Source: a virus
Strand: one strand, 5' to 3'
Length of the DNA stretch: 20,159 nucleotides
IMG/VR virus record: IMGVR_UViG_3300017786_000200
Location: 1 to 20,159 of that record
Shown here: positions 2 to 17,722 of the stretch, piece by piece
Numbering within the stretch: the first letter of the stretch is position 1
How the letters are laid out: each line of letters starts with the position of its first letter
Translations under genes and position numbers: made by a program
Notes under the pieces: generated by a model
Told to the model about the DNA's origin: nothing
Database searches by the model: none
The model's input: only the letters and a program-made list of their open reading frames with translations

Positions 2-1630
2 GACTCCCCCGAGTATCACTCAAGGCTTATCGAAGAACTAGAGATCATTCTCAAACTTCGTTTCGTCGACTATTTCCTAACAATTTGCGATGTACTAACG
101 CTAACCAACGACATTACACATATGACTCGTGGTTCAGCAGGGTCTAGTCTCGTCTGTTACCTACTAGGTATTACAGACGTGGATCCCATAAGATGGCAAA
201 TACCGGTAGCACGTTTCCTAAATCCTTTAAGGGATGACTTACCACATGTGGACATAGACTTTCCACACTGGCAACAGACGGCTGTTATGCAAAGAATATT
301 TGATAAATGGCCCGGTAAAAGTGCTCGCATCAGCAACTATGTAACTTACAAAGAAAAGAGTGCAAAGCGTGAAGCAGCACGACGTTTAGGTGCATCTGGT
401 AATCTCCCACGTGGCTTTAAGTATGAAGATTTAGACATCGACAAGGAAGAAGCAATGAGAATCGAACGTAAACTAATAGGCAAAAAAAGAGCAATATCAA
501 AACACTGCGGAGGTATACTTGTATTCAAACACAAAGTACCTAAAAGTTTAATCAACGCAGACAATCAAATACTACTAGACAAACACGAAGTAGAGGATTT
601 AGAACACCTCAAGATTGATATCCTTGCTAACAGAGGACTCAGTCAACTATTGGAGATTGACCCGGATACTCCACTAGAAGCATATCCGGAACAAGATTAT
701 GAAACAGAACAGTTGTTGCGCAGTGGCAACGTTATTGGGGTAACACAAGCAGAAAGCCCAGCAATGCGCAGACTGTTTCGTGCTATACAACCAAAGTCAA
801 AAGCAGACTGTGTGTTTGCTACTGCACTTATTAGACCTGTTGCTACTACAGGCAGACAAAAAGCAAGTTTTTTTCAAGACTGGACTGAACAACGTCTTGA
901 GGATACTATTGTTTATGAAGATGATGCTATCCGTAAAATAGCAAAACTTATCGACTGCGACATGTATGAAGCAGACATGTATCGTCGTGCGTTTGCAAAA
1001 CGTGACGAAGAACGTGTAATGGAATTCATGGAGAAGATGGGAGAGAGTGAGAACAAGGAACAGATCATTAATGAACTTTATGGTTTGGGCAACTTTGGGT
1101 TATGCAGGGCACACGCTGTAAATCTTGGAAGGCTGATTTGGGCATTAGCGTATCAAAAAGCCCACAACCCAAAAGCATTTTGGGCGGCGGCACTGAAACA
1201 CTGTCAAGGCAGTTGGCGCCGATGGGTACATAAAACAGAAGCAAAACTAAGTGGCTGGGACCTGCGTGACCTTGGCTTCCCTAATGGCATAACTGAAACA
1301 CCACAGCAACAATACAAACGCTATGGCTATTGGACACAGCCAGAGTTTATGCCCAATATGTTTGTGCAAGAGACCTGGGGCGACAGAGTAAACTTTGCAG
1401 GACTAGTTGCTAATGGTCGTGTGTTTAAAGGTGAAAGCGGAAAGTATGTTACGTTTGTTACTGTAGGTATTGCAAATGGTGAATATGTTGATGTAACCAT
1501 TAAAAAGCCATTTAGTTACAGAGACCATGACGTTATCACAGGCAGTGGTAAAATACGTTGGAACAACGGTAGTGCATATATTGACTGTTGGGACGCACAA
1601 GGTCATAGACTAGACCGTTATCTTAACTAA
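2..1630 (+). CDS. DnaE-type (C-family) DNA polymerase III alpha-like protein, 5' partial
   Basis: The frame stays open to the left edge, so the ATG at 122 is internal. The 40 residues before it (starting DSPEYHSRL) read as the DnaE stretch that precedes the RGSAGSSL motif. Landmarks, counted from the ATG at 122: RGSAGSSL (3-10), FLNP (32-35), PHVDIDF with D44 and D46, and LKIDIL with D166. These match the three catalytic Asp of the DnaE palm (E. coli D401, D403, D555). LCRAHAVNLG corresponds to the DnaE YGFNKSHS region. A C-terminal part near 420-460 (FKGESGKYVTFVTVG) looks like an OB fold. The PHP domain, if there is one, lies outside the window. By family role it would be the template-directed polymerase. 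T4-like phages usually use a B-family polymerase (gp43); none is in this window. The stop overlaps the convergent 2OG-oxygenase gene by 4 bases. Confidence 0.88.
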   Translation, partial: DSPEYHSRLIEELEIILKLRFVDYFLTICDVLTLTNDITHMTRGSAGSSLVCYLLGITDVDPIRWQIPVARFLNPLRDDLPHVDIDFPHWQQTAVMQRIFDKWPGKSARISNYVTYKEKSAKREAARRLGASGNLPRGFKYEDLDIDKEEAMRIERKLIGKKRAISKHCGGILVFKHKVPKSLINADNQILLDKHEVEDLEHLKIDILANRGLSQLLEIDPDTPLEAYPEQDYETEQLLRSGNVIGVTQAESPAMRRLFRAIQPKSKADCVFATALIRPVATTGRQKASFFQDWTEQRLEDTIVYEDDAIRKIAKLIDCDMYEADMYRRAFAKRDEERVMEFMEKMGESENKEQIINELYGLGNFGLCRAHAVNLGRLIWALAYQKAHNPKAFWAAALKHCQGSWRRWVHKTEAKLSGWDLRDLGFPNGITETPQQQYKRYGYWTQPEFMPNMFVQETWGDRVNFAGLVANGRVFKGESGKYVTFVTVGIANGEYVDVTIKKPFSYRDHDVITGSGKIRWNNGSAYIDCWDAQGHRLDRYLN

Positions 1631-2205
1631 GTCCATGTTGCATGTAAACTGTAACGATTGTAATCTGCAGGCACAACTCCGTGCAACCAATGTGTAAGAC
1701 CAACAGTATTATCAGCAACATATCCACTTCCTGGCGCAGTATCTGTCCAAGTGTTGCTCATATAATCCTGTGTTGATTCAAACACAGTGCTTAGATAAGA
1801 CAAGTTTTGAATATACATTTGCAAACTTGCATTAAACATAGGATTATCTGTATGCGGACCTATTGCATAGTTTTCTGTGTCTTTCCACAAATCTAAACCA
1901 TTGAATGTTAACTGCTTGTTGAATAACTTTGACAAATCATCAGTTACATTTTCCAACACCATATGCGAAACTTCAAGCACGGTATCATGTTCAAAACATA
2001 TTTTTTGCCTGTACTTAATAGTTTCACCATGGGGGTCCAATGCCGGCTGCCAGTCAGCTGATTCACAGTAGTCTAGCAACTCTGCTAGCAACTGTTGTGG
2101 AAATAGTTTTTGAAAAACCTGCACAGTGCCTTTACAACTAGGTAATGCATTTATAACTGTAGTTGCATGCGCAGTTCCTCGTTCAATAAGTTGAAAATCT
2201 AACAT
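1627..2205 (-). CDS. 2OG-Fe(II) oxygenase-like protein
   Basis: This 192-aa protein has the residues expected of the double-stranded beta-helix fold of 2-oxoglutarate/Fe(II) dioxygenases. GPHTDN gives the HxD iron-binding pair (H118, D120). GLTHWLHGV gives the distal His (H172 or H175), and NRYSLHATW gives an Arg (R184) placed to bind 2-oxoglutarate. Family members use Fe(II), O2 and 2-oxoglutarate to hydroxylate small molecules, peptides, nucleic acids or lipids. The substrate cannot be read from the sequence. The ATG overlaps the end of the amidinotransferase gene by 7 bases, so the two are probably translationally coupled. It is the last gene of the leftward operon. It could be a prolyl or small-molecule hydroxylase. 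Confidence 0.68.
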   Translation of the reverse strand: MLDFQLIERGTAHATTVINALPSCKGTVQVFQKLFPQQLLAELLDYCESADWQPALDPHGETIKYRQKICFEHDTVLEVSHMVLENVTDDLSKLFNKQLTFNGLDLWKDTENYAIGPHTDNPMFNASLQMYIQNLSYLSTVFESTQDYMSNTWTDTAPGSGYVADNTVGLTHWLHGVVPADYNRYSLHATWT

Positions 2206-3233
2206 TGTCTATCCAAATCATTTGTTAAGCAATGTATCCCACTGTCCCAGAACATTTGATGTCTAAACGGAGATACATGTGCAGTTATTCCATGCTGTTC
2301 TAGTACACGGAAAACTTGTTCATCGTAGTTACTCGTCACTACATTAGCGGGATCTACTATTAACATGTTTACATCGAAGTATGATTCTTGTATGTCTCCT
2401 AGCCAATGCTTGAGATAACTTTCAATGTACTGATCAAACTCAGTGTGTTGTAGATCAGTTGGTAACCACCATTGACCTATTTTGTTTTTTGCTGTTTTAA
2501 ACTGTTTGTTTATACTATTAGTTAGTGTGTATATTTCAGTGTGTTTACTATCAAAATAATTTTCCATACCAGGCGATACAAATGCTAGTTCTGGACTAAC
2601 ACAACAAACACTACCATCTAAGTGTCCTTGTGTATCTAGTAGTTTTACGGTTTTATTGGGAAACTGCTGGGTTAAGTATTCGCTTATATGTGCATGCTGA
2701 CTTATCCAGTTGCCGCATAGCAGTGTATCACCCAGTCGTTGCACCATTGCAGTATCTACGTCTTGGTTAAGCACTATATGTTCATAGTCATTGGGCAACG
2801 CTGTCATCCAACTATGGTCATAGTTGTACAATGATTCTACGCTGTGTCCGTCATATTCTGTAATACCTTGGGGAGGATCTTTGGGCCAGTCTGCTCCTTG
2901 CATCTGTCTCCATACACCCAGTGCATCCGGCGTAGGCATAAACAGTGTTGTGTCTATAACACCAAAATGATCTCTAGGAGTTAGCGGCGCTGGTAGTATT
3001 TTTGAGCCATACCGCACTTGATCTACGTTTGTAGCAACGCTAGGTCGTGTTACTGCTACATCAAAACTTTCTAACAATCGTTGCAGTGCAAGTAAATCTT
3101 CACAAGTTTGTTGTGCAATAGTTTCTAAGTTAGATCTTATATCTGCGTGGTCAATAAAACTATAGAACTCTGGAGGGTAAGCACTGCCCACAACACATGC
3201 TTGTAGTTTGTTCCAGTGAGCGTTAACCTGCAT
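2199..3233 (-). CDS. Amidinotransferase (GATM/StrB-like) family protein
   Basis: At 344 aa it is close to the usual length for glycine or inosamine-phosphate amidinotransferases, which move an amidino group from arginine to an amine through a Cys intermediate. The motifs run in order: TPRDHF near 85-90, corresponding to the family PRD region; QGHLDGS at 202-208, with the catalytic His204 and Asp206 of the HxD motif; and GIHCLTNDL near 332-340, with the likely nucleophile Cys335, as in the C-terminal active-site Cys loop of GATM. By my hand alignment the second catalytic Asp region (GATM Asp254) falls near residue 163, where Met is seen, so activity needs checking. It lies between a PLP-fold gene (11-base overlap) and a 2OG-oxygenase gene (7-base overlap), which suggests one pathway. 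Its acceptor amine is unknown. Confidence 0.78.
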   Translation of the reverse strand: MQVNAHWNKLQACVVGSAYPPEFYSFIDHADIRSNLETIAQQTCEDLLALQRLLESFDVAVTRPSVATNVDQVRYGSKILPAPLTPRDHFGVIDTTLFMPTPDALGVWRQMQGADWPKDPPQGITEYDGHSVESLYNYDHSWMTALPNDYEHIVLNQDVDTAMVQRLGDTLLCGNWISQHAHISEYLTQQFPNKTVKLLDTQGHLDGSVCCVSPELAFVSPGMENYFDSKHTEIYTLTNSINKQFKTAKNKIGQWWLPTDLQHTEFDQYIESYLKHWLGDIQESYFDVNMLIVDPANVVTSNYDEQVFRVLEQHGITAHVSPFRHQMFWDSGIHCLTNDLDRQC

Positions 3234-4044
3234 GCTTTACCAGGAGGTCTGTGATACACTCCAGTCCATGATTGCTTGGATTTACACAATGAACAAACTT
3301 GGTTTGTGTAAGATCCAGTTGTGTACATATATCTTGATTAAGATCACCATAAGTGTTCCATGCATAGTCTCTGTCTAGATTTTGCATGTGGTACATACCA
3401 CAACTGAATATGTTTGTGTTTATATCATGTTTATAATAATGATTAAGTATTGTAATGCTATCCATAGTACGCTGTCGACTCCAGCGCAATCCAACTCTGT
3501 TCCAGTTAAGATTAAGTTTACTCATACTAATAGCAAAACTTTTTATACAAGGATGTGATAGATCAATCTCAATATCCCGTGCCATAACGATCCAGGCTAG
3601 ATCCAAGTGTAAATCAATGTTACGAGCTTCAGCGACGCTTAATAGATCCTGCCACTCGTTGCGTACTCCACCTGTATGAAAGTCTGGTATTGTTACTATC
3701 ATTGGTTTATTGGCTTCAAGTTCTTCTAGTTCAACACCGTGTTTGCCCATTAGTTTGTAGTAAGCATATTCCCTAGGTAGAATTTGAAATCCTTGCCAGC
3801 CATATTTTAGAACAAAACTTTCAATATAGTGAGTGTTTCCGCATGTAACATCTACCCAAGGAAAATGTTCTACACCTTGCAAATCAACTAACTTACTATT
3901 CAAGAACCATTCTTGTGCAACTGCAATATAGTCTTTCCAACCACACTCAGGATGTGTTTGTTCGAACCATGCTTGTTTAAGCCTATTACTTGTAGCGTCG
4001 GCTATGGTGGTTATTCGAGGCTTTACTAAACTTCTATCGTACAT
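3223..4044 (-). CDS. Short PLP-dependent aminotransferase-fold protein
   Basis: This 273-aa protein reads like a trimmed fold-type I (class I/II aminotransferase-like) enzyme. VDVTCGNTHY (64-73) resembles the cofactor phosphate-binding turn. IPDFHTGG (119-126) sits where aminotransferases have the NPTG motif. DLHLDLAW (144-151) supplies the Asp (D148) that contacts the pyridine nitrogen. SMSKLNLNWNRVGLR (173-187) supplies the probable Schiff-base Lys176 and the following Arg residues. Typical enzymes of this class are about 400 aa, so the small C-terminal domain is reduced. The reaction and substrate are unknown. It overlaps the downstream amidinotransferase gene by 11 bases. An amine made here could be the acceptor for amidination, but that is inference. 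Confidence 0.66.
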   Translation of the reverse strand: MYDRSLVKPRITTIADATSNRLKQAWFEQTHPECGWKDYIAVAQEWFLNSKLVDLQGVEHFPWVDVTCGNTHYIESFVLKYGWQGFQILPREYAYYKLMGKHGVELEELEANKPMIVTIPDFHTGGVRNEWQDLLSVAEARNIDLHLDLAWIVMARDIEIDLSHPCIKSFAISMSKLNLNWNRVGLRWSRQRTMDSITILNHYYKHDINTNIFSCGMYHMQNLDRDYAWNTYGDLNQDICTQLDLTQTKFVHCVNPSNHGLECITDLLVKHAG

Positions 4045-4438
4045 GATCCATTACAAACTCATAAAAAGGACTGGTAAAATCTAATCGCCATACGCAGTTA
4101 TGTGATAGTTCACATTGTCCTAACACAGTTTCCTCTAGAACCACGCCCTCTGCACGTTGTTGTGTTGCCCAAGGTTCGGGATATTCAGGAGTATTTGTAC
4201 TATCAGTATAAAGTATATCTTGAATATTAATCCCATCTACTGTTATACTTTTTATTAAAACACTTTGTTCTGGTGTTTTATTTGTTTTTCCACTATGTAC
4301 TATTCGTAGTTCATGCTTGCCAAACTCTAGTGTTGCTGAAAACTTAGGCTGTGTATACAGTGTATTGTCAATATAAATGTCTAGTACAGGATCGCCTTGT
4401 ACATCTAACTGTATATCGAACTCTATAGTTTCATTCAC
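4034..4438 (-). CDS. Unassigned beta-rich protein, possibly carbohydrate-binding-like
   Basis: This 134-aa protein has alternating hydrophobic and polar residues typical of a beta-sandwich (for example DPVLDIYIDNTLY and the later KHELRIVHSG). This layout recalls Ca-dependent carbohydrate-binding modules, but no diagnostic motif is clear. No signal peptide or membrane segment is seen. The start is GTG at 4438: the nearby ATG at 4434 is out of frame and closes at once, and no internal Met is available before the C terminus. A GGA-containing stretch about 8 bases upstream could serve as ribosome site. The gene overlaps the helicase stop by 8 bases and the PLP-fold gene by 11 bases. Its place in the cassette may be coincidental. 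Confidence 0.5.
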   Translation of the reverse strand: MNETIEFDIQLDVQGDPVLDIYIDNTLYTQPKFSATLEFGKHELRIVHSGKTNKTPEQSVLIKSITVDGINIQDILYTDSTNTPEYPEPWATQQRAEGVVLEETVLGQCELSHNCVWRLDFTSPFYEFVMDHVR

Positions 4439-5828
4439 TTTTCAGTCCAGCAAGCATGTCTTTAAGTTTACTGCTTTGTACACTTGCAGTAATCTTGCCT
4501 GCTTCCTCATCTGGTGCAGTAACCACACCGCCGCTGTCTTTGTTTTTAAGTTGATCATAGATACTGCTACTCTGTTTCTTAAACTGTTGATATTCTTCAT
4601 CCTCGCCCAAGTCTCGGATGCGCAGACTTTCAACATCAAACTCCAAGTCAATCTTTTGACCAACGCCACTACTACTTCTAGTTTTCATTAACTGTAGTTG
4701 ATAGCGTCCACGTTCTTTCATTGCACGACTTGTAAAGATACCAAACACATTATCTGCTGTGTTGATCTTACTCAAACCACCTGCAATGTGCGAATGATCA
4801 AACTCGATCTCCTCCACTGCACCTCGGTTTAACTGCGATGCTGTTACAAACACACAGTTTAGCTCTTTAGCCAAGTTACGCAGTTCTTCTGATACATACT
4901 TGTCTTTAACAAACAAATCATTTGGACTGACCTTTGCACTCACAGGCATAATCAAGTCCAAGTAGTCAATAAGCAAGAAATCAATCTTCCAACCATTTTT
5001 AATCTGTAGTTCTTTCAAGTATGCACGAATATCATTTACGTTACTCTGTGCTGGCATGTATTTGATCTGCAAGTTACCGGCTTTTTTGCCTGCCATTTTG
5101 ACTTTCATTTCGACAGTGTCGAGGTCTTTAAACACCTCCTTTGTCGACACATTTGTCATCATGCTGTCAATACGCATAGCACTAAGTCCTTCGCTAAGTT
5201 CCAGACTCAAATACACGCCATTCAGTCCTGTTGTAACCCAGTTAACTGCTAGGTTCTGCATGAACAAACTTTTACCTGACCCTGATCCACCTGCAAAAAT
5301 ATTGAGTTCGCCTTTGTTCATGCCTCCGAACAGTTTCCTGTCAACAGCGGGCCATCCTGTACTGATCTGCCCGTTGTTGTCTTTGAGTGCCATCAATCTT
5401 GCTCTGGGATCCTCAAAATAGTTTGTACCCATGTCTTTTGTTAAACTAATCTGCACAGCATCTTTGATTAGTTTTTCTACAGGATCATATGTGCCTTTTT
5501 CCAACAAGTCTGCCGCCTTGAGAATAGCACGTTCTAGTTCTTGCCGCTTGGTGAATCCTTCAAACTCTGCAAGAAACCAATCATTGTGACTTTCGGTAAT
5601 GTCCGGAACGGGCTTTAGTTCAACACCCGTAACTGCCTGCACTTGTTCATATGTAGGCAATGCACCATGCTCATCGCTGTGTGTCTTGATAAACTCTGCC
5701 GCATCTTTAAGACTGCGATCAAAGTTCTCTGTATTGTAAATGTTTTGAATACGCACATAGTTTTGTGCATCATTCATCATCATTTCCAAAAACAGTTTTT
5801 GTAAGTCTGGTGTGTATTCTTTTGTCAT
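4431..5828 (-). CDS. 41: Replicative DNA helicase, DnaB/T4 gp41-like
   Basis: This 465-aa RecA-fold helicase is close to T4 gp41 in length. It has an N-terminal helical domain (about 1-130), then Walker A AGGSGSGKS (179-187), Walker B LLIDYLD (285-291) and the DnaB-type motif ASQLNR (330-335). A further run with basic residues near 380-400 (MKTRSSS) would fit arginine-finger or DNA-contact roles. In T4, gp41 is the hexameric 5'-3' fork helicase working with primase gp61 and loader gp59. Here the primase gene is in the same operon three genes upstream (primase, P-loop-like, radical SAM, helicase). The ATG overlaps the radical SAM stop as ATGA. The C-terminal tail after about 430 is Lys/Ser-rich and probably flexible. 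Confidence 0.93.
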   Translation of the reverse strand: MTKEYTPDLQKLFLEMMMNDAQNYVRIQNIYNTENFDRSLKDAAEFIKTHSDEHGALPTYEQVQAVTGVELKPVPDITESHNDWFLAEFEGFTKRQELERAILKAADLLEKGTYDPVEKLIKDAVQISLTKDMGTNYFEDPRARLMALKDNNGQISTGWPAVDRKLFGGMNKGELNIFAGGSGSGKSLFMQNLAVNWVTTGLNGVYLSLELSEGLSAMRIDSMMTNVSTKEVFKDLDTVEMKVKMAGKKAGNLQIKYMPAQSNVNDIRAYLKELQIKNGWKIDFLLIDYLDLIMPVSAKVSPNDLFVKDKYVSEELRNLAKELNCVFVTASQLNRGAVEEIEFDHSHIAGGLSKINTADNVFGIFTSRAMKERGRYQLQLMKTRSSSGVGQKIDLEFDVESLRIRDLGEDEEYQQFKKQSSSIYDQLKNKDSGGVVTAPDEEAGKITASVQSSKLKDMLAGLKSE

Positions 5829-6709
5829 TCACATTTTCCACAGTTGTAAACGCAATAGTCATAGCGTTGATTATGTATTGTAGCATAAAATGCATCGAAA
5901 TGTCTACATTGTTCTGACAATGTACTTGTAGTTATATCATGCTGTTGTCTGTTTTTCCACCACTCACTTTTATAATACCATACATGACTTGTCATCATAC
6001 AGCAAGGACTATAGTAGCCCTGGGCAGAGATATAATGTTGTTTTTGGTTTTTACAAACCGGATCAATGTCCAAGTCTCTGCGATTTTCTAACTTGTATTG
6101 CATTTTTACTTCACTGTCTTGATGTACCTGACTAGGACGTAATGGATCGTTTTCAATCCATCTACTGCTAAGGTCAACTACAAACCTATCTACACCAAGT
6201 TCTTTACTAAGTTGTTGCGCTGCATCTATATCATTTTCATTATATGCAAAAGGAATAAATCTCCAAGTAGTGCGGGCTGGACCAGAGACACATGCATCAA
6301 TTCCTGTTTTTACACTAGTCCAGTCGGCATTTATTCTATACTGCATAAAGTTGTGAGGCAATCCATCTATGCTAAACTTTATTCTATCTGTAGAGCGTAG
6401 TATTTTATTAAGTGCATCCCACCACTTTGCAGACTTTCCACTTCCGTTGGTTGTGATGCAAACATCTTTGGTCTTTGTCTGTAGCATTTGTACAAGTTCT
6501 ATAAACTTAGCATGGTAAATAGGATCGCCTAGATTGCCGCATAGATTTATATCATCTAGTTTTAAATCTATGAACTTATCTAACGCATCAATGTTAATAT
6601 CTCCTATAGGCAAAAACCTACGACCTTTTGCTAGAAGTTCAGTTCTTTCACAACGCGGGCAAGCAAGTCTGCATCTACTTGTAGGTTCAATGTGTAAACT
6701 AGATATCAT
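5825..6709 (-). CDS. Radical SAM protein with SPASM-like C-terminal cysteines
   Basis: The 294-aa protein has the radical SAM CxxxCxxC signature (C13, C17, C20) just after an N-terminal strand (SLHIEPT). A GNLGDP (58-63) fits the SAM-contacting region, and ITTNGS (85-90) is also typical. C-terminal cysteines at 219, 236, 237, 268, 286, 290 and 293 look like a SPASM/twitch-type auxiliary FeS site. Radical SAM enzymes cleave SAM to start carbon-centred chemistry on peptides, nucleotides or small molecules. The substrate is not evident and no precursor peptide was found nearby. It lies between the P-loop-like gene (11-base overlap) and the helicase (4-base overlap). The ferredoxin encoded at 17344-17697 could supply its electrons (inference). 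No clear Shine-Dalgarno precedes the ATG, so coupling is likely. Confidence 0.85.
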   Translation of the reverse strand: MISSLHIEPTSRCRLACPRCERTELLAKGRRFLPIGDINIDALDKFIDLKLDDINLCGNLGDPIYHAKFIELVQMLQTKTKDVCITTNGSGKSAKWWDALNKILRSTDRIKFSIDGLPHNFMQYRINADWTSVKTGIDACVSGPARTTWRFIPFAYNENDIDAAQQLSKELGVDRFVVDLSSRWIENDPLRPSQVHQDSEVKMQYKLENRRDLDIDPVCKNQKQHYISAQGYYSPCCMMTSHVWYYKSEWWKNRQQHDITTSTLSEQCRHFDAFYATIHNQRYDYCVYNCGKCE

Positions 6710-7562
6710 AATATTTGGTTATGTCTTTGCTGTTAGGAAAATTATCTAGATCATAACACAACAACTCAGTACCTTGTTCACGAATATAATGTTGTATCAT
6801 TGCTTCTAACCGCAAGTCTCCTCCGAGGTCTACAACGTGTTCTTCCGTGCCTTGTATAGTTGTTTTGTATTTTGAGAAGCGATCCCATTTATCCCATATT
6901 AAAGTTTGATTGGTACTCCAATCTTCGCAAAGTTGGTCGAAAAGAACTTGATCCCTGATAGATCCTTTGCACAGTTTGATGACCGTTCTTATACATCCTC
7001 TAAGATCAGTAAATATGTCCATTGTATCAATATGGTAAAATCCTAGTCTGCTTGCTTGCAGTATATTGTCTAGCATTTCTTTAGTCCACCATTCCATAAG
7101 ACTAAGACTGAGATGTTCTCTATGTTCCCATTGTGTGTCATTGGCAGGAGCAGGGTAACTTTCTTTTAGCTCTGCAGGTGCTTTAAGTTGAGTTATCTGT
7201 GCAAAATCTATACTATCTTTGCTAGGACCTATATACAACAAAACATCATCTTTTTTACACAAGTTATTTTTTATATAATCCATAACCTCTGTGCCTTTAT
7301 AGTCAATCATAGGTACTATAGGAGTAAAAATATTAACAGGTGCTGTTTTATACTTTTGTGCAAATAGTTGATCTTTAGACGCCGGATGCCATTGTTTGAT
7401 TAGCCAATGACTGGATTGTGCATCTGGTATATCCCATATTTCTGGCAAATCCATTACTTCTCTGTATCTAGGAGGAAGACAGTCCAGGTCACTACAATGT
7501 CTTATTACTTTTTCTACAGTAGTAGCACCGCTACCAGGCACAAATACAAGCCAAATATTCAC
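6699..7562 (-). CDS. Unassigned protein with P-loop/sulfotransferase-like N terminus
   Basis: The 287-aa protein begins with a strand followed by a glycine-rich turn, VFVPGSGATT (about 6-15), which resembles the 5'-phosphosulfate-binding loop of sulfotransferases or a loose P-loop. Nothing else ties it firmly to a family. Trp and aromatic residues are frequent (for example MEWWTKE). The start is GTG at 7562 in a GTGA overlap with the primase stop, and no other Met occurs until about residue 37. A second protein with a similar N-terminal Gly-rich turn is encoded at 12590-13204. It could be a sulfotransferase, a kinase-like P-loop protein or neither; the function is unknown. Confidence 0.55.
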   Translation of the reverse strand: MNIWLVFVPGSGATTVEKVIRHCSDLDCLPPRYREVMDLPEIWDIPDAQSSHWLIKQWHPASKDQLFAQKYKTAPVNIFTPIVPMIDYKGTEVMDYIKNNLCKKDDVLLYIGPSKDSIDFAQITQLKAPAELKESYPAPANDTQWEHREHLSLSLMEWWTKEMLDNILQASRLGFYHIDTMDIFTDLRGCIRTVIKLCKGSIRDQVLFDQLCEDWSTNQTLIWDKWDRFSKYKTTIQGTEEHVVDLGGDLRLEAMIQHYIREQGTELLCYDLDNFPNSKDITKYYDI

Positions 7563-8524: not shown

Positions 8525-9151
8525 TTATATTATATGTTCTTTTGCGAAAAGATGCAACCGTTTTGTGAACCATTCGTGACCCTGCTCGTTAGGGTGTCCA
8601 CCACTAGCAAAATGTTCAGATTGCAGTACACTTTGCATTGTGGCGCCATCAAGGAAATAGTTAGGATATTGTGTTGGTGTGTGTTTGCCTATAGCATTGA
8701 ACTGTAGTATCGGAAGGTCATGGTATTTGCAAACTGCATTTACATTAAGTTTTGCGGCGTCTGTCCAATATTGATGATCAACATTGCTTTTCAACCAATC
8801 ACTGCGACTGTGTAAAAACTTTTGATCATTTCTAACCTGCCCATTGTGTGTCCAAGTTTCATCTAGCCAACTGAATCTACAAGACTCTGTCCAAGCAACG
8901 CAGATTATAATCTGTTCAGCAGGGTTCCAAGTGTTATTGATATAATCTGCTACTTGATATTGTATAGCATAGTTACTGTTTGCAGGTTGTGCAAGGTTAT
9001 CATAATGAAAGTCTAATCGTTCTGCCAGGCGACCTAGCCAAACATTGTGTTCTCTATAACGAATGTTTGCGTGATGAGACTCAGATCCTAGATCCGGATC
9101 TACTAGTTCACTGCCATAGGTAAAACTACAGCCAAATCCTACTAGTTTCAC
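8525..9151 (-). CDS. SGNH/GDSL-hydrolase-like protein (copy 1)
   Basis: The 208-aa protein has SGNH-hydrolase landmarks. FGCSFTYG (6-13) carries the putative nucleophile Ser9. AQPANSN (54-60) corresponds to the Gly/Asn block, with Gly apparently lost. The C terminus has SGGHPNEQGH (183-192) with His186. The usual DxxH Asp position is Ser183. SGNH enzymes are esterases or lipases acting on acyl or acetyl groups, often on glycans. A paralogue with the same AWxExxR-type middle motif and SGGHP ending is encoded at 16745-17347. The start is GTG at 9151 in a GTGA overlap with the structural gene's stop. A role on host or virion surface sugars is possible but unproven. Confidence 0.68.
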   Translation of the reverse strand: MKLVGFGCSFTYGSELVDPDLGSESHHANIRYREHNVWLGRLAERLDFHYDNLAQPANSNYAIQYQVADYINNTWNPAEQIIICVAWTESCRFSWLDETWTHNGQVRNDQKFLHSRSDWLKSNVDHQYWTDAAKLNVNAVCKYHDLPILQFNAIGKHTPTQYPNYFLDGATMQSVLQSEHFASGGHPNEQGHEWFTKRLHLFAKEHII

Positions 9152-10886: not shown

Positions 10887-11309
10887 TTAATCCCATAGGC
10901 TTTCGTAGTACTTACCAAAGAGTCTAAACCCATTTGAGATACGATTTTGTTCTTCTTCTAGTGCGCTGCGATCATCTAAACGCATATACACATCGTCCTT
11001 GTTTGCTTTACAATCAAATGCGTATATCATTTCGTCTAGTATCCAATCCCAACGTGCAAAAAAGCAAGGATCTGTTTCACCTGTTTTATTGTAATGATCT
11101 TCTTGTTCTTTAGTGGGCCACAAATGCCTAGGAACATCAACGAAGTCAGTTTTAGGGGCGCCATGTTTAGTGTCTTTTAGTTGTACTAGCATAGGCAGGA
11201 TAATAGGAGCAAGTGTGTGATCCATGCTCCATGTATCATACTCGTCTATGTGTATTGACATTTCTTGTGCTTCGCCGTCATCTGTGAACGGTCCTATTGA
11301 AACTTTCAT
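10887..11309 (-). CDS. Conserved phage protein of unknown function
   Basis: This soluble 140-aa protein has conserved-looking motifs: an N-terminal MKVSIGPF, then DEYDTWSMDHTLAPIILPML (22-41), and RWDWILDEMIYAF near 86-98. I recall the DxWSMDxTLAxIILPML pattern from marine phage proteins of unknown function. A Shine-Dalgarno GAGGAA lies 6 bases before the ATG. It overlaps the stop of the mini-DnaE gene as ATGA and is followed one base later by the small acidic gene. No enzymatic residues can be assigned. Confidence 0.72.
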   Translation of the reverse strand: MKVSIGPFTDDGEAQEMSIHIDEYDTWSMDHTLAPIILPMLVQLKDTKHGAPKTDFVDVPRHLWPTKEQEDHYNKTGETDPCFFARWDWILDEMIYAFDCKANKDDVYMRLDDRSALEEEQNRISNGFRLFGKYYESLWD

Positions 11310-11869
11310 TCTTGTTCCTCTAGTATATTCATATGCACTGCTACCAGTTGTGCATACGCAACACTGTGGCTTTTCTTAAAACTATAACTGTCTTGCCCTG
11401 CTTTATCCCAGATTGTTTGAGCAACTTCTGCCCACGGCAGACCAATCAAGTGCCGCTTTGCAGGGCGGATCACAGCAAGAAACATTGACATGCGTGGTAT
11501 ACTATTTACAGGTTCTGGCATCTTAAGCATTGTATCGTAGTGCTTGCCAACGTGTATAAGTTTTTCAAAAAACTCACGTTCTTGCAAACGATACCAGTGA
11601 GGTTCTCGCATAAGTTCTACTAAATGTAGTTCATTACTGATACGTTCATATACACCTACATTTAGCAAGTCCAGTTTAAAGTATCCTAGTTGCTCTGCCG
11701 CCTTGTGATCCAGTGTAGCGAGTCCATCATGTGCCATTGGGATGTCTGTAAAGTAAACACCAGTGTTGTGTTTGTTACCATTTTCAAGTCTAGCGCCAAT
11801 ACCCGACACATGTTTTAGTAACTGTGTACGATCACCGAAGTCAATGTCTACATCTGGCATGTCTCTCAT
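11306..11869 (-). CDS. Miniature DnaE-like protein (palm-related, 187 aa)
   Basis: The protein opens with MPDVDIDF, the palm signature of bacterial DnaE. Asp8 and Asp10 match the first catalytic pair, and YFKLDLL (Asp67) matches the third. KHNTGVY corresponds to the DnaE RHAAGV-type region, and YSFKKSHSVAYAQ near the C terminus matches the DnaE YGFNKSHSAAYA motif. The PHP domain, the upstream RGSAAGS part, most of the fingers and the C-terminal domains are absent (187 aa against over 1000). The start is taken as the ATG at 11869: it overlaps the previous stop as ATGA and has AAAGGA 9 bases upstream, while the ATG at 11902 has no ribosome site. I recall similar short proteins in marine T4-like phages. 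Whether it polymerises DNA is unknown. Confidence 0.8.
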   Translation of the reverse strand: MRDMPDVDIDFGDRTQLLKHVSGIGARLENGNKHNTGVYFTDIPMAHDGLATLDHKAAEQLGYFKLDLLNVGVYERISNELHLVELMREPHWYRLQEREFFEKLIHVGKHYDTMLKMPEPVNSIPRMSMFLAVIRPAKRHLIGLPWAEVAQTIWDKAGQDSYSFKKSHSVAYAQLVAVHMNILEEQE

Positions 11870-12597
11870 AGCCCTGCTTCCTTTAGTATGTGTTTTACCC
11901 ATTCTGTGTCTGCAAAATAATCTACAAACTTACGCTTCCAGTAGTCCGGATCGATGTACGGAAAAATCATTTCGACTTGTTCACTGCTTAGTTTGTTCAA
12001 CGCACTTTGTCCACTGTCACAGTTAAACACCACCCATGCACTGATACGTCCTGTTGTAATATGTTGCACAAGTAGGTTACTGTTCACATAGTTAAAATAA
12101 TGATTGAATACACTTTCTTTTTCTTCAGCCCAGTCTTCCATGGTTTTTATACTGCGCTCCAGTGCATCCTGCACTGCTTCTTTGCGCAAATGATCAAACA
12201 AGTATTCTTGATAGACAGCATCCTTACACCAGTAATCCAGTTTCTTATTGCTTTTAATCACCCAGTCAATAAACTTAGCAGTGTTGATTGCACGAATAGC
12301 AACCATGTGTCTACCAAACTTTACAAATGCATTGTAATAAGGACTAGTACTAAAGTCTGCATATGTTTTAAACTTAGCACTGCCTTGAGTCATTTCATAA
12401 AAACGCAAGTATGCAGTCATAGCAAGTTTTACACCTGCTTCATTCTCTTGCATGGCTCTGCGCTTTGGCTCACACAGGTGTGCCACAAGGGTACTTTCCT
12501 TGCGATAGCCTTTGCCACAATACTTACATTTAAAATCGGTTTCTTGCATACTGTAGTTTATTATAGCATCTCTGATAACTGATGTAAAGTTATCCAT
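11866..12597 (-). CDS. Conserved phage protein with N-terminal C2HC-type zinc finger
   Basis: Of its 243 aa, residues 24-42 form a compact finger: C24, C27, H40 and C42 (CKYC...AHLC), followed by basic KRR. The rest is mainly helical, with a motif run FYEMTQGSAK and SPYYNAFVKFGRH (about 66-97) that I recall from marine T4-like phage proteins without an assigned function. The finger plus basic patch suggests nucleic-acid binding (inference). AGGA lies about 10 bases upstream of the ATG. It overlaps the P-loop-like gene by 8 bases and the mini-DnaE by 4, so it may act with replication proteins. Confidence 0.72.
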   Translation of the reverse strand: MDNFTSVIRDAIINYSMQETDFKCKYCGKGYRKESTLVAHLCEPKRRAMQENEAGVKLAMTAYLRFYEMTQGSAKFKTYADFSTSPYYNAFVKFGRHMVAIRAINTAKFIDWVIKSNKKLDYWCKDAVYQEYLFDHLRKEAVQDALERSIKTMEDWAEEKESVFNHYFNYVNSNLLVQHITTGRISAWVVFNCDSGQSALNKLSSEQVEMIFPYIDPDYWKRKFVDYFADTEWVKHILKEAGL

Positions 12598-13204
12598 TTA
12601 TTTTATCCTGCCAGCGATTATAATATTCTAGTGTAAATGTTCGGTCAAAGTCTTTCATTTTAAACATTGTATAAAACATGCTGATATCATTAAGTAGACT
12701 TGCAATGTTACCGTAGTTTTCTACATCAAAAATATAGTCACTGTGTATATTTAAATCTTTCACAGGATTGTATATATCTCTACGCATGGTGCCGCAGTTA
12801 ACGAGATTTATCGTAGTAGCACGAGGAAAAGCACGACACAGTTGCAGATAGTTTTCTTCTGTATGCGTAGTTTGGAAAAAGTATTTGTCACCGTAACTTA
12901 TATCAACAACTTGGTCAAACTCAAACTCTATTTCGTGTATTGCTTCTGCTAGCAGACCATCTATGTTATATTCAAACTGTTTAAAGCAACCTAAGTCTAA
13001 ATCGTTCCAAGTGCCAGCAGGCGTAGCATCTAGTCTATCAAATATAAGTTGTTTCTTTTCTGTGCTTGATAGACTGTAAAGTTCCCAATCTTGCAAACAA
13101 GCACTGTTACTAACACCTAAACTGTTTATGAGAAACTTGCCGCCGGCACCTGTAGGGTAAGCAACAACGACAAGTTTATCTGTATTATAGTTAAACTTCT
13201 CCAT
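12590..13204 (-). CDS. Unassigned protein with P-loop/sulfotransferase-like N terminus (copy 2)
   Basis: In this 204-aa protein, KLVVVAYPTGAGGKFLINSL (11-30) is a strand, Gly-rich turn and helix, resembling the nucleotide-binding turn of sulfotransferases or P-loop proteins. No second catalytic motif is certain. Its N terminus parallels that of the 287-aa protein at 6699-7562, but the remaining sequence differs. Marine phages often carry such proteins, to my recollection without proven function. It overlaps the gp62-like gene by 14 bases and the zinc-finger gene by 8. Confidence 0.55.
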   Translation of the reverse strand: MEKFNYNTDKLVVVAYPTGAGGKFLINSLGVSNSACLQDWELYSLSSTEKKQLIFDRLDATPAGTWNDLDLGCFKQFEYNIDGLLAEAIHEIEFEFDQVVDISYGDKYFFQTTHTEENYLQLCRAFPRATTINLVNCGTMRRDIYNPVKDLNIHSDYIFDVENYGNIASLLNDISMFYTMFKMKDFDRTFTLEYYNRWQDKING

Positions 13205-15839: not shown

Positions 15840-16767
15840 AAATCTGCCTTAAATTTTGTCTAAGTTCTTTATTATTAGTATTATACATTAGTTCTCTAAA
15901 AAATGCAATATCTTCTTCGCTGTTAAGTAAATGCAAATAACTGTTCAGTCTAACAAGCAGTCTATGATTTTCTGCTAATCTCTGCCTAACATCAACAGTG
16001 TAAACATCATATGCATTTTGCAATACTTGTTTGTTATCATCCATTAACTTTTGTGTTCTCGCATATGGATCAACAATATATTGACTACTATAATCTACTA
16101 TATCTTCAAACATATCAAAGCCAAGTTTTTTCATAGCCGCGCATGCACCATATCCATGCAGTATTGGAATACAATAATCTAAAATACAATGTTCTGTTTT
16201 CTCACTGTAATGATGACCTAGCTCAAAGAAGTTTGGTTCTGTAACAATGTCAAATACACTGCTGCTCCTTGGAGGACTGTCTTGCCAACGTTTAGGTAAC
16301 CCAGGATGCCAATCGTCTACGAAAAGTTCATGAGCTGACATACCATCTTCCTCTGCGTTGAACTGGCTTGTATACTCAAAGTCTTGTGTAAAGTTTTCGT
16401 TAATCCAACTGCTAACCAACACACGATGATGCCTAGGTTTATTTAACCATGCACTAAACTTATATTTTTTATCGCTAGGAGTGTTAGTGGGTATGTCTTT
16501 AATATGACTTATTGTTTCATTTACAAACAACACAGGACCAGGAACTTGTATATGTAAATAACTTTCAAATATCCAAGCAGTTTTGCCTTTGCTATTTTCT
16601 AACCAACAGTTTTGCCCATAGTGTTCTCGTTGTAGTTGTTGCCTACTAAAACTGTAATCTATTTCTTTTTCTGGCAAATGATCCATAACATAAACACAGT
16701 CTCTGTCGGTGTCGGTGTTTACAGGATCCCAGGGCCAGACTTTTCTAAATGTGTGATTGTATTGCAT
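15814..16767 (-). CDS. Glycosyltransferase-like protein (GT10-like C-terminal pattern)
   Basis: From the ATG at 16767 this is 317 aa. That start is chosen because AAAGGA lies 7 bases upstream, while the ATG at 16788 has no ribosome site. The middle has AWLNKPRHHR (about 106-115). The C-terminal half has HYSEKTEHCI (186-195), then a hydrophobic strand, then KLGFDMFED (214-222) and YARTQKL. This EKT, strand and GF-x-F layout is seen in fucosyltransferase-like phage and bacterial glycosyltransferases, where Glu-Lys contacts the sugar nucleotide. Donor and acceptor are unknown. The neighbouring SGNH-like gene upstream could trim or deacylate the same glycan. The extreme C terminus is helical and basic. 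Confidence 0.58.
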   Translation of the reverse strand: MQYNHTFRKVWPWDPVNTDTDRDCVYVMDHLPEKEIDYSFSRQQLQREHYGQNCWLENSKGKTAWIFESYLHIQVPGPVLFVNETISHIKDIPTNTPSDKKYKFSAWLNKPRHHRVLVSSWINENFTQDFEYTSQFNAEEDGMSAHELFVDDWHPGLPKRWQDSPPRSSSVFDIVTEPNFFELGHHYSEKTEHCILDYCIPILHGYGACAAMKKLGFDMFEDIVDYSSQYIVDPYARTQKLMDDNKQVLQNAYDVYTVDVRQRLAENHRLLVRLNSYLHLLNSEEDIAFFRELMYNTNNKELRQNLRQIYETSGIAR

Positions 16768-17347
16768 CTGCAATCCTTTGGTGACCATACTCTAGAGGAT
16801 GCCCGCCAGATCCATGTGGTGTACCATATGCCCACTCGACCATTCCATGGTATGGATATCCTATAAAACGTTCGGTGTTTAATCTGCTCAACAATGGATG
16901 TGTGCTATATTTAAGAAACATCTGCTGATTGCTAAATGCACTGCAATAACGCCAATCCACGTTATTGACGTCAAGATAGGATTGCAGTGCTATCATATAT
17001 GTTAGTGTGCGAGTAAACTGATGTTCTTCCTGTGTGTATTTTGCATACAGTTCTCTAAACCAAGGCAGTTCAGTCCATCTACTGTTTGTTTGTATTAGCC
17101 CTTGAAACTGTTTGTGTCTATGCACAGTAACGGGTTCGTGTGTGTATACTTCGTGCCTTGTACATTCGCTCCATGCTACTATAATGTGTGTACAAGTTGG
17201 TGCTAGCTCTATTGCAGTTCTAAAAATATACTCATTGCTAGCACCCGGTAAACCATGGTTTTCATAGCCTAACAATGTGGGCCATGCATTGCTACGGTCT
17301 TCTAGTTCTTCGCCGTAGGTAAAACTATCGCCTACTGCCGCTTTCAT
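16745..17347 (-). CDS. SGNH/GDSL-hydrolase-like protein (copy 2)
   Basis: The 200-aa protein has [11 protein letters not shown] (5-15), with Ser8 in a true GDS motif. GLPGASN (32-38) supplies the Gly and Asn blocks. VAWSECTR (57-64) is the middle motif, and [11 protein letters not shown] (179-189) supplies His183. As in the paralogue at 8525-9151, the DxxH Asp is replaced by Ser (Ser180). The family contains esterases acting on acylated sugars or lipids. AGGA lies 8 bases before the ATG, which overlaps the ferredoxin stop as ATGA. It overlaps the glycosyltransferase-like gene by 23 bases, suggesting joint action on a glycan (inference). Confidence 0.72.
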
Positions 17348-17697
17348 TCCTGCGGTCCTGATTCCTCACTGAACTGTGCAGTTTTATCTTCTGTATATCC
17401 CATGGCAGGATTGACTGCATCAGCATCAGGCAGTGCTTCTAACTTCTGTGTAATGTTGGGCCATATCAAACTATACTTGCGATTCTTTTCTAACCAGTAT
17501 TCCAAGTCAGTGTCCATGTAAGTGTCAGGCACAATCGCTTCTGCTGGACATTCAGGTTCGCATACTCCACAATCAATGCATTCGTCTGGATGAATAACGA
17601 TTGTGTTCTCACCAATATAAAAGCAATCAACCGGACACACTTCGACACAGTCTGTGTATCTACAGTTGACGCAGTTTTGATTTACAATGTATGTCAT
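17344..17697 (-). CDS. fdxA: Bacterial-type 7Fe ferredoxin (FdxA-like)
   Basis: The 117-aa protein begins [17 protein letters not shown] and continues with EVCPVDCFY and [15 protein letters not shown]. The Cys spacing is that of 7Fe ferredoxins carrying one 3Fe-4S and one 4Fe-4S cluster. The segment up to about residue 60 is nearly textbook alphaproteobacterial FdxA, followed by the usual helical tail (EYWLEKN...[14 protein letters not shown]). The start is the ATG at 17697, with AGGAG 5 bases upstream; a GTG at 17703 is in frame but would put the AGGAG against the start. The role is low-potential electron transfer; the phage radical SAM enzyme is one possible client. It opens the second leftward operon after the hairpin-rich spacer. 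It was probably acquired from a host. Confidence 0.95.
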
Positions 17698-17722
17698 ATA
17701 CACTCCTAGTGAAAAGGTCGAA

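Follow-up and report, generated by a model that had tools for sequence, protein, structure and literature searches.

A conserved viral module of a compact PLP enzyme, an amidinotransferase, and an oxygenase that probably serves an undescribed pathway to a guanidine-bearing compound

Why does a virus carry genes for a putative PLP-dependent enzyme, an amidinotransferase, and an oxygenase behind its replicative helicase gene? This question is raised by IMGVR_UViG_3300017786_000200, a virus record of 20,159 bases that was analyzed over its whole length (the window). The window encodes a DnaB-like helicase (phrog_19), a primase, a DNA helicase (phrog_16), an exonuclease (phrog_255), and pieces of DNA polymerase, which is a T4-like replication set; a search of the window for tRNAs found none. 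The two polymerase pieces (phrog_405 and phrog_11778) are separated by about 9.7 kb and lie on opposite strands, at 11306 to 11902 (minus) and 2 to 1630 (plus). The latter is a DNA polymerase III alpha-like gene whose product has the sequence LPHVDIDF, compared with LPDVDIDF in four related contigs; the changed residue, which is within the presumed catalytic Asp motif, reflects either natural variation or an error in sequencing.

On the minus strand, dnaB (4431 to 5828; phrog_19, E value of 1.6e-71), which we treat as context outside the module, is followed by four overlapping open reading frames: u134 (4034 to 4438; 134 aa), PLP (3223 to 4044; 273 aa), AT (2199 to 3233; 344 aa), and OG (1627 to 2205; 192 aa). 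The coordinates and the junction DNA give overlaps of 8 bp for dnaB/u134, 11 bp for both u134/PLP and PLP/AT, and 7 bp for AT/OG. A first-pass annotation of this DNA had described PLP, AT, and OG as a trio of overlapping genes, and they lie where it placed them, on the minus strand; the fourth overlapping gene, u134, had been overlooked in its inventory of the cassette. The residues that it named (D148 and K176 of PLP; H204, D206, and C335 of AT; H118, D120, and R184 of OG) were confirmed in the translations and, when relatives were inspected for their absence, proved to be conserved (50 PLP, 32 AT, and 41 OG members). Two residues that it did not name, H172 of OG and D160 of AT, also are present in the window translation.

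For the PLP protein of the window, none of Pfam, PHROGs, and NCBIfam gave a significant match, and a sequence search of the PDB with the PLP profile found nothing. Scanning viral contigs with the PLP alignment yielded 84 relatives, and those kept gave 50 non-redundant representatives. An AlphaFold model based on the 50 relatives reached a pLDDT of 93.6 (an earlier run with 11 sequences, which reached 47, was discarded). Compared with fold-type-I PLP enzymes, this model gave an E value of 6e-9 with Foldseek and a Z score of 16.7 with VIA (rmsd of 4.1; 257 of 273 residues aligned). The riskiest claim of the first-pass annotation, that of a short PLP-fold enzyme, was borne out by this check, and on the strength of the model the reading of the fold as that of a fold-type-I PLP enzyme is firm. 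The protein contains the motifs G69xT71 and H146xD148 as well as K176, and both K176 and D148 are conserved in 50 of 50 members. Judged by motif and fold, K176 would be equivalent to the Schiff-base lysine and D148 to the aspartate directed to the pyridine nitrogen. No conserved Arg was seen in residues 240 to 273 among the 50 members. The closest viral model is an uncharacterized Caudovirales protein.

The top structural neighbors of PLP were C-S lyases, MalY, and aminotransferases; these were tied within 1 Z, so the structure does not tell which reaction is catalyzed, and a family missing from the listed neighbors is not thereby excluded. The PLP family carries an H-x-D-x-A-W motif that is known from decarboxylases. 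PF00282 (Pyridoxal_deC) was matched weakly by 18 of the 50 relatives (best E value, 0.0046). The window PLP protein did not match it, the curated cutoff for PLP group II decarboxylases not being reached, and a PF00282 search of the window's own record found nothing. No PLP, OG, or u134 gene was found in the annotated phage collection. A scan of genome contigs with the PLP alignment, which used two short patterns only and thus leaves room for cellular homologues, gave no relative. The compact PLP family appears, so far, to be known only from viral contigs.

Searched as a single sequence, AT gave only weak matches, to HsvA and StrB. A profile of 32 relatives matched human AGAT (8.7e-24), SxtG (4.9e-21), HsvA (3e-20), and StrB (2.3e-17), and H204, D206, and C335 were invariant (32/32). 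The profile matches and the invariant residues uphold the earlier suggestion of a GATM/StrB-like amidinotransferase and support the assignment of AT to this superfamily, with transfer of an amidino group from arginine as its predicted activity. D160, which is present in the window and aligns with the catalytic Asp254 of AGAT, is Asp in only 17 of the 32 members. HsvA is a polyamine amidinotransferase, and this match, together with the PF00282 matches and the H-x-D-x-A-W motif of the PLP family, would suit a free small guanidino amine resembling agmatine or an amidino-polyamine, made, for example, for neutralization of DNA charge in the capsid. We consider this unlikely, as the PF00282 matches are weak, the structural neighbors of PLP do not separate aminotransferases from C-S lyases, and u134 would be left without a role.

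AT shares its superfamily and the conserved catalytic His and Cys with AGAT of human creatine synthesis, but it lacks the AGAT loop carrying Met302, and its neighbors in the cassette are PLP and 2OG enzymes. The AGAT segment NPM, which precedes the catalytic His, is absent. Met302 has a known role in AGAT, and the missing loop argues against glycine as the acceptor; a creatine pathway, which was considered, is unlikely for the same reason. Relatives of AT are numerous in viral contigs (at least 589). In the open-access literature, an amidinotransferase has been named as a single phage gene (PMC8226683), and one is mentioned where genes for creatine synthesis are discussed (PMC11360552).

The relatives of OG share an HxD...H...RxS pattern, which in the window consists of H118-x-D120, H172, and R184-x-S186. 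H118, D120, and R184 were found in 41 of 41 relatives and H172 in 40 of 41 (97 to 100% conservation of the motif). This facial triad and 2OG-binding Arg motif suggest that OG is a 2OG-Fe(II) oxygenase. The motif on which this family had been proposed thus holds, but profile support was not obtained: OG had no significant match in Pfam, NCBIfam, PHROG, or the PDB. A search against PADLOC gave a weak match to AbiJ.

In order to be read as one pathway, these genes should travel together. OG was found in 42 of the 50 PLP loci, AT in 34, and u134 in 30, with maximum gaps to PLP of 1,807, 900, and 5 bp, respectively. Nine contigs of 36 to 95 kb have OG beside PLP, and in each of them that OG match was the sole one. 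The cassette occupies two unrelated genomic sites, one beside dnaB and the other beside gp46/gp47 (names that are our own reading of the sequences), and its genes occur in the orders u134-PLP-AT-OG, AT-OG-PLP, and OG-AT-PLP and as u134-PLP facing OG. Divergence of the members was correlated, with a partial r of 0.54 to 0.81 across nonindependent locus pairs after the divergence of dnaB or gp46 was removed. On a tree of 93 ATs, the PLP-linked ATs need 2 label changes, compared with a mean of 27 when labels are shuffled. The trio is linked beyond chance, AT and OG lying within 1.8 kb of PLP wherever they were found with it, and the PLP/AT/OG(/u134) set is a real module.

The linkage is not uniform. 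AT is absent from 16 and OG from 8 of the 50 loci, partly through contig ends and partly through true absence, and the latter indicates that all three genes are not always needed. A scan with AT gave 74 new loci, 12 with a PLP match and 62 with none. Independent occurrence of the genes, which the first-pass annotation had held to count against its pathway, applies to AT, which is common without PLP, but not to the trio, which is linked at two sites. At one locus (L009:1670-2530), AT was lost by an in-frame deletion, and its last residues are fused to the C terminus of PLP. Between the window and L011, OG is 89% identical but AT only 53%, which suggests exchange of single genes. Shared insertion hot spots for genes with no common function would accommodate this difference, the loci that lack AT or OG, and the wide occurrence of AT alone. 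It would be hard to reconcile with the same trio at two unrelated sites in permuted order, with correlated divergence and dedicated AT lineages, and we regard it as very unlikely.

A radical SAM gene had been included in the proposed pathway at first pass. The gene does lie upstream of the helicase gene, at 5825 to 6709 on the minus strand (PF04055, 5.8e-6; phrog_21308, 5.4e-27), but its membership in the cassette did not hold. It was found in 7 of the 50 PLP loci, adjoining dnaB, and in L011, L012, and L015, where the cassette is elsewhere, it remains beside dnaB. We rejected it as a pathway member since it is tied to dnaB and does not move with the cassette. Its match in PADLOC, to pVip, was weak.

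The fourth gene, u134, abuts the start of PLP in relatives, and the C-terminal half of its product is strongly conserved. One member of its family weakly matched CBM60 (E value of 0.057), and u134 is a probable small beta-sandwich protein and a probable partner of the PLP enzyme in one branch. Its position against PLP in 30 of 50 loci and its conserved half would be in keeping with modification of a protein, either u134 itself or a virion protein, instead of a small molecule. This seems improbable to us, given that the cassette loci at the gp46 site lack u134 and that one branch of u134 is found by itself in other phages. That branch, which ends in SPFYMWLL(E/D)NLY, occurs without PLP in L205, L224, L225, L228 to L231, and L233 to L236. 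A doubled u134 is found as a single 383-aa protein in L063:348-1499.

The PLP fold, AT profile, OG motif, conserved linkage, and codivergence support the family assignments and one linked pathway. We infer the enzyme activities, the sharing of a pathway, the order of steps, and the identities of substrate and product as follows. The compact PLP enzyme, with u134 as a probable partner in one branch, would act by decarboxylation or transamination to make or handle a primary amine. AT would shift the amidino group of arginine onto the amine via Cys335, and OG would hydroxylate the substrate or the product. The expected product is a guanidino compound bearing a hydroxyl group; it would probably be built on a sugar or another larger acceptor and not be free guanidinoacetate or creatine. 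A phage module for guanidinylation and hydroxylation of an amine supplied by the PLP enzyme is our best explanation of the locus, at a probability of roughly 0.5.

The surroundings of other phage ATs bear on the acceptor. Other settings of AT include one with a glycosyltransferase, GTP cyclohydrolase I, an NAD epimerase, and a short DegT-type PLP protein and one with a DUF6875/DUF6614 set. The first of these neighborhoods fits the ketone-amine-guanidine logic of amino-sugar guanidinylation. NAD epimerases were found in 6 of 15 cassette contigs, which would suit sugar chemistry without pointing to it specifically. In five loci (L115, L121, L126, L128, and L140), the glycosyltransferase, epimerase, amidinotransferase, DegT-like PLP protein (about 200 aa), and GTP cyclohydrolase I were observed together.

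The acceptor could also be a base. At both sites the cassette is among replication or recombination genes, and hypermodification has precedents in marine phages, for example that of 5-carboxymethylcytosine-glycine in Synechococcus phage S-B43, where formation of 5-carboxymethylcytosine uses CmoA/CmoX/CmoY (PMC12783734). This system resembles the cassette as a marine phage tailoring pathway. Guanidinylation and hydroxylation of a base-borne amine nonetheless appears to be a doubtful reading of the set, because neither the thymidylate-synthase/hydroxymethylase family (PF00303) nor CmoA was found in the 15 cassette contigs (most of them fragments, one of 316 kb); other handles are possible. Of the original proposal to make an amine, amidinate it, and hydroxylate it, the enzyme families and their linkage are retained, whereas the radical SAM gene is removed and the known handles of hypermodified bases were not seen. 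It is possible, and we put this forward tentatively, that a phage-specific pathway with its own compact PLP family makes an undescribed hydroxylated guanidino modification on phage DNA, glycan, or protein.

Similar combinations of enzymes are known from cellular pathways. The streptidine branch of streptomycin biosynthesis uses the PLP aminotransferase StsC and the amidinotransferase StrB. Like it, the cassette pairs a PLP enzyme with a GATM-superfamily amidinotransferase, whose profile matches StrB, and related phage ATs have a DegT-type PLP protein, an epimerase, and a glycosyltransferase as neighbors. Unlike it, the cassette is phage borne, its PLP protein is compact (273 aa) and not recognizably DegT, it has an additional 2OG oxygenase and u134, and no inositol genes were seen in the window. 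With SxtG, an amidinotransferase of the saxitoxin type that AT resembles by profile, only the enzyme superfamily is shared, and there is no sign here of the remaining saxitoxin-type pathway. Capreomycidine synthesis, to which the first-pass annotation had pointed, joins the 2OG arginine hydroxylase VioC to the PLP enzyme VioD; the cassette likewise combines a 2OG oxygenase with a fold-type-I PLP enzyme, a likeness in the kinds of enzyme. We know of no amidinotransferase step in capreomycidine synthesis.

A search of open-access papers for the PLP/AT/OG set found no description, and the module probably represents a viral pathway, undescribed so far, for a guanidine-bearing compound. Pathways that guanidinylate by means of a PLP enzyme and an amidinotransferase are known in organisms that make antibiotics or toxins; a compact version conserved in phages whose hosts are uncultured would add a new class to viral biosynthesis. 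It also would give a use to phage amidinotransferases, which to date have been recorded one by one as auxiliary metabolic genes (PMC8226683). As the four cassette genes are small and adjacent, the product is open to direct search by coexpression and mass spectrometry.

Elsewhere in the window, the minus-strand genes at 6699 to 7562 and 12590 to 13204 encode proteins with a P-loop-like N terminus that are without a significant family match and possibly are sulfotransferase-like. Two SGNH/GDSL-like proteins with SFTYG and GGHP motifs are encoded at 8525 to 9151 and 16745 to 17347 (minus), the first of which weakly matched PF13472, and a small ferredoxin-like protein (phrog_16249) is encoded at 17344 to 17703 (minus).
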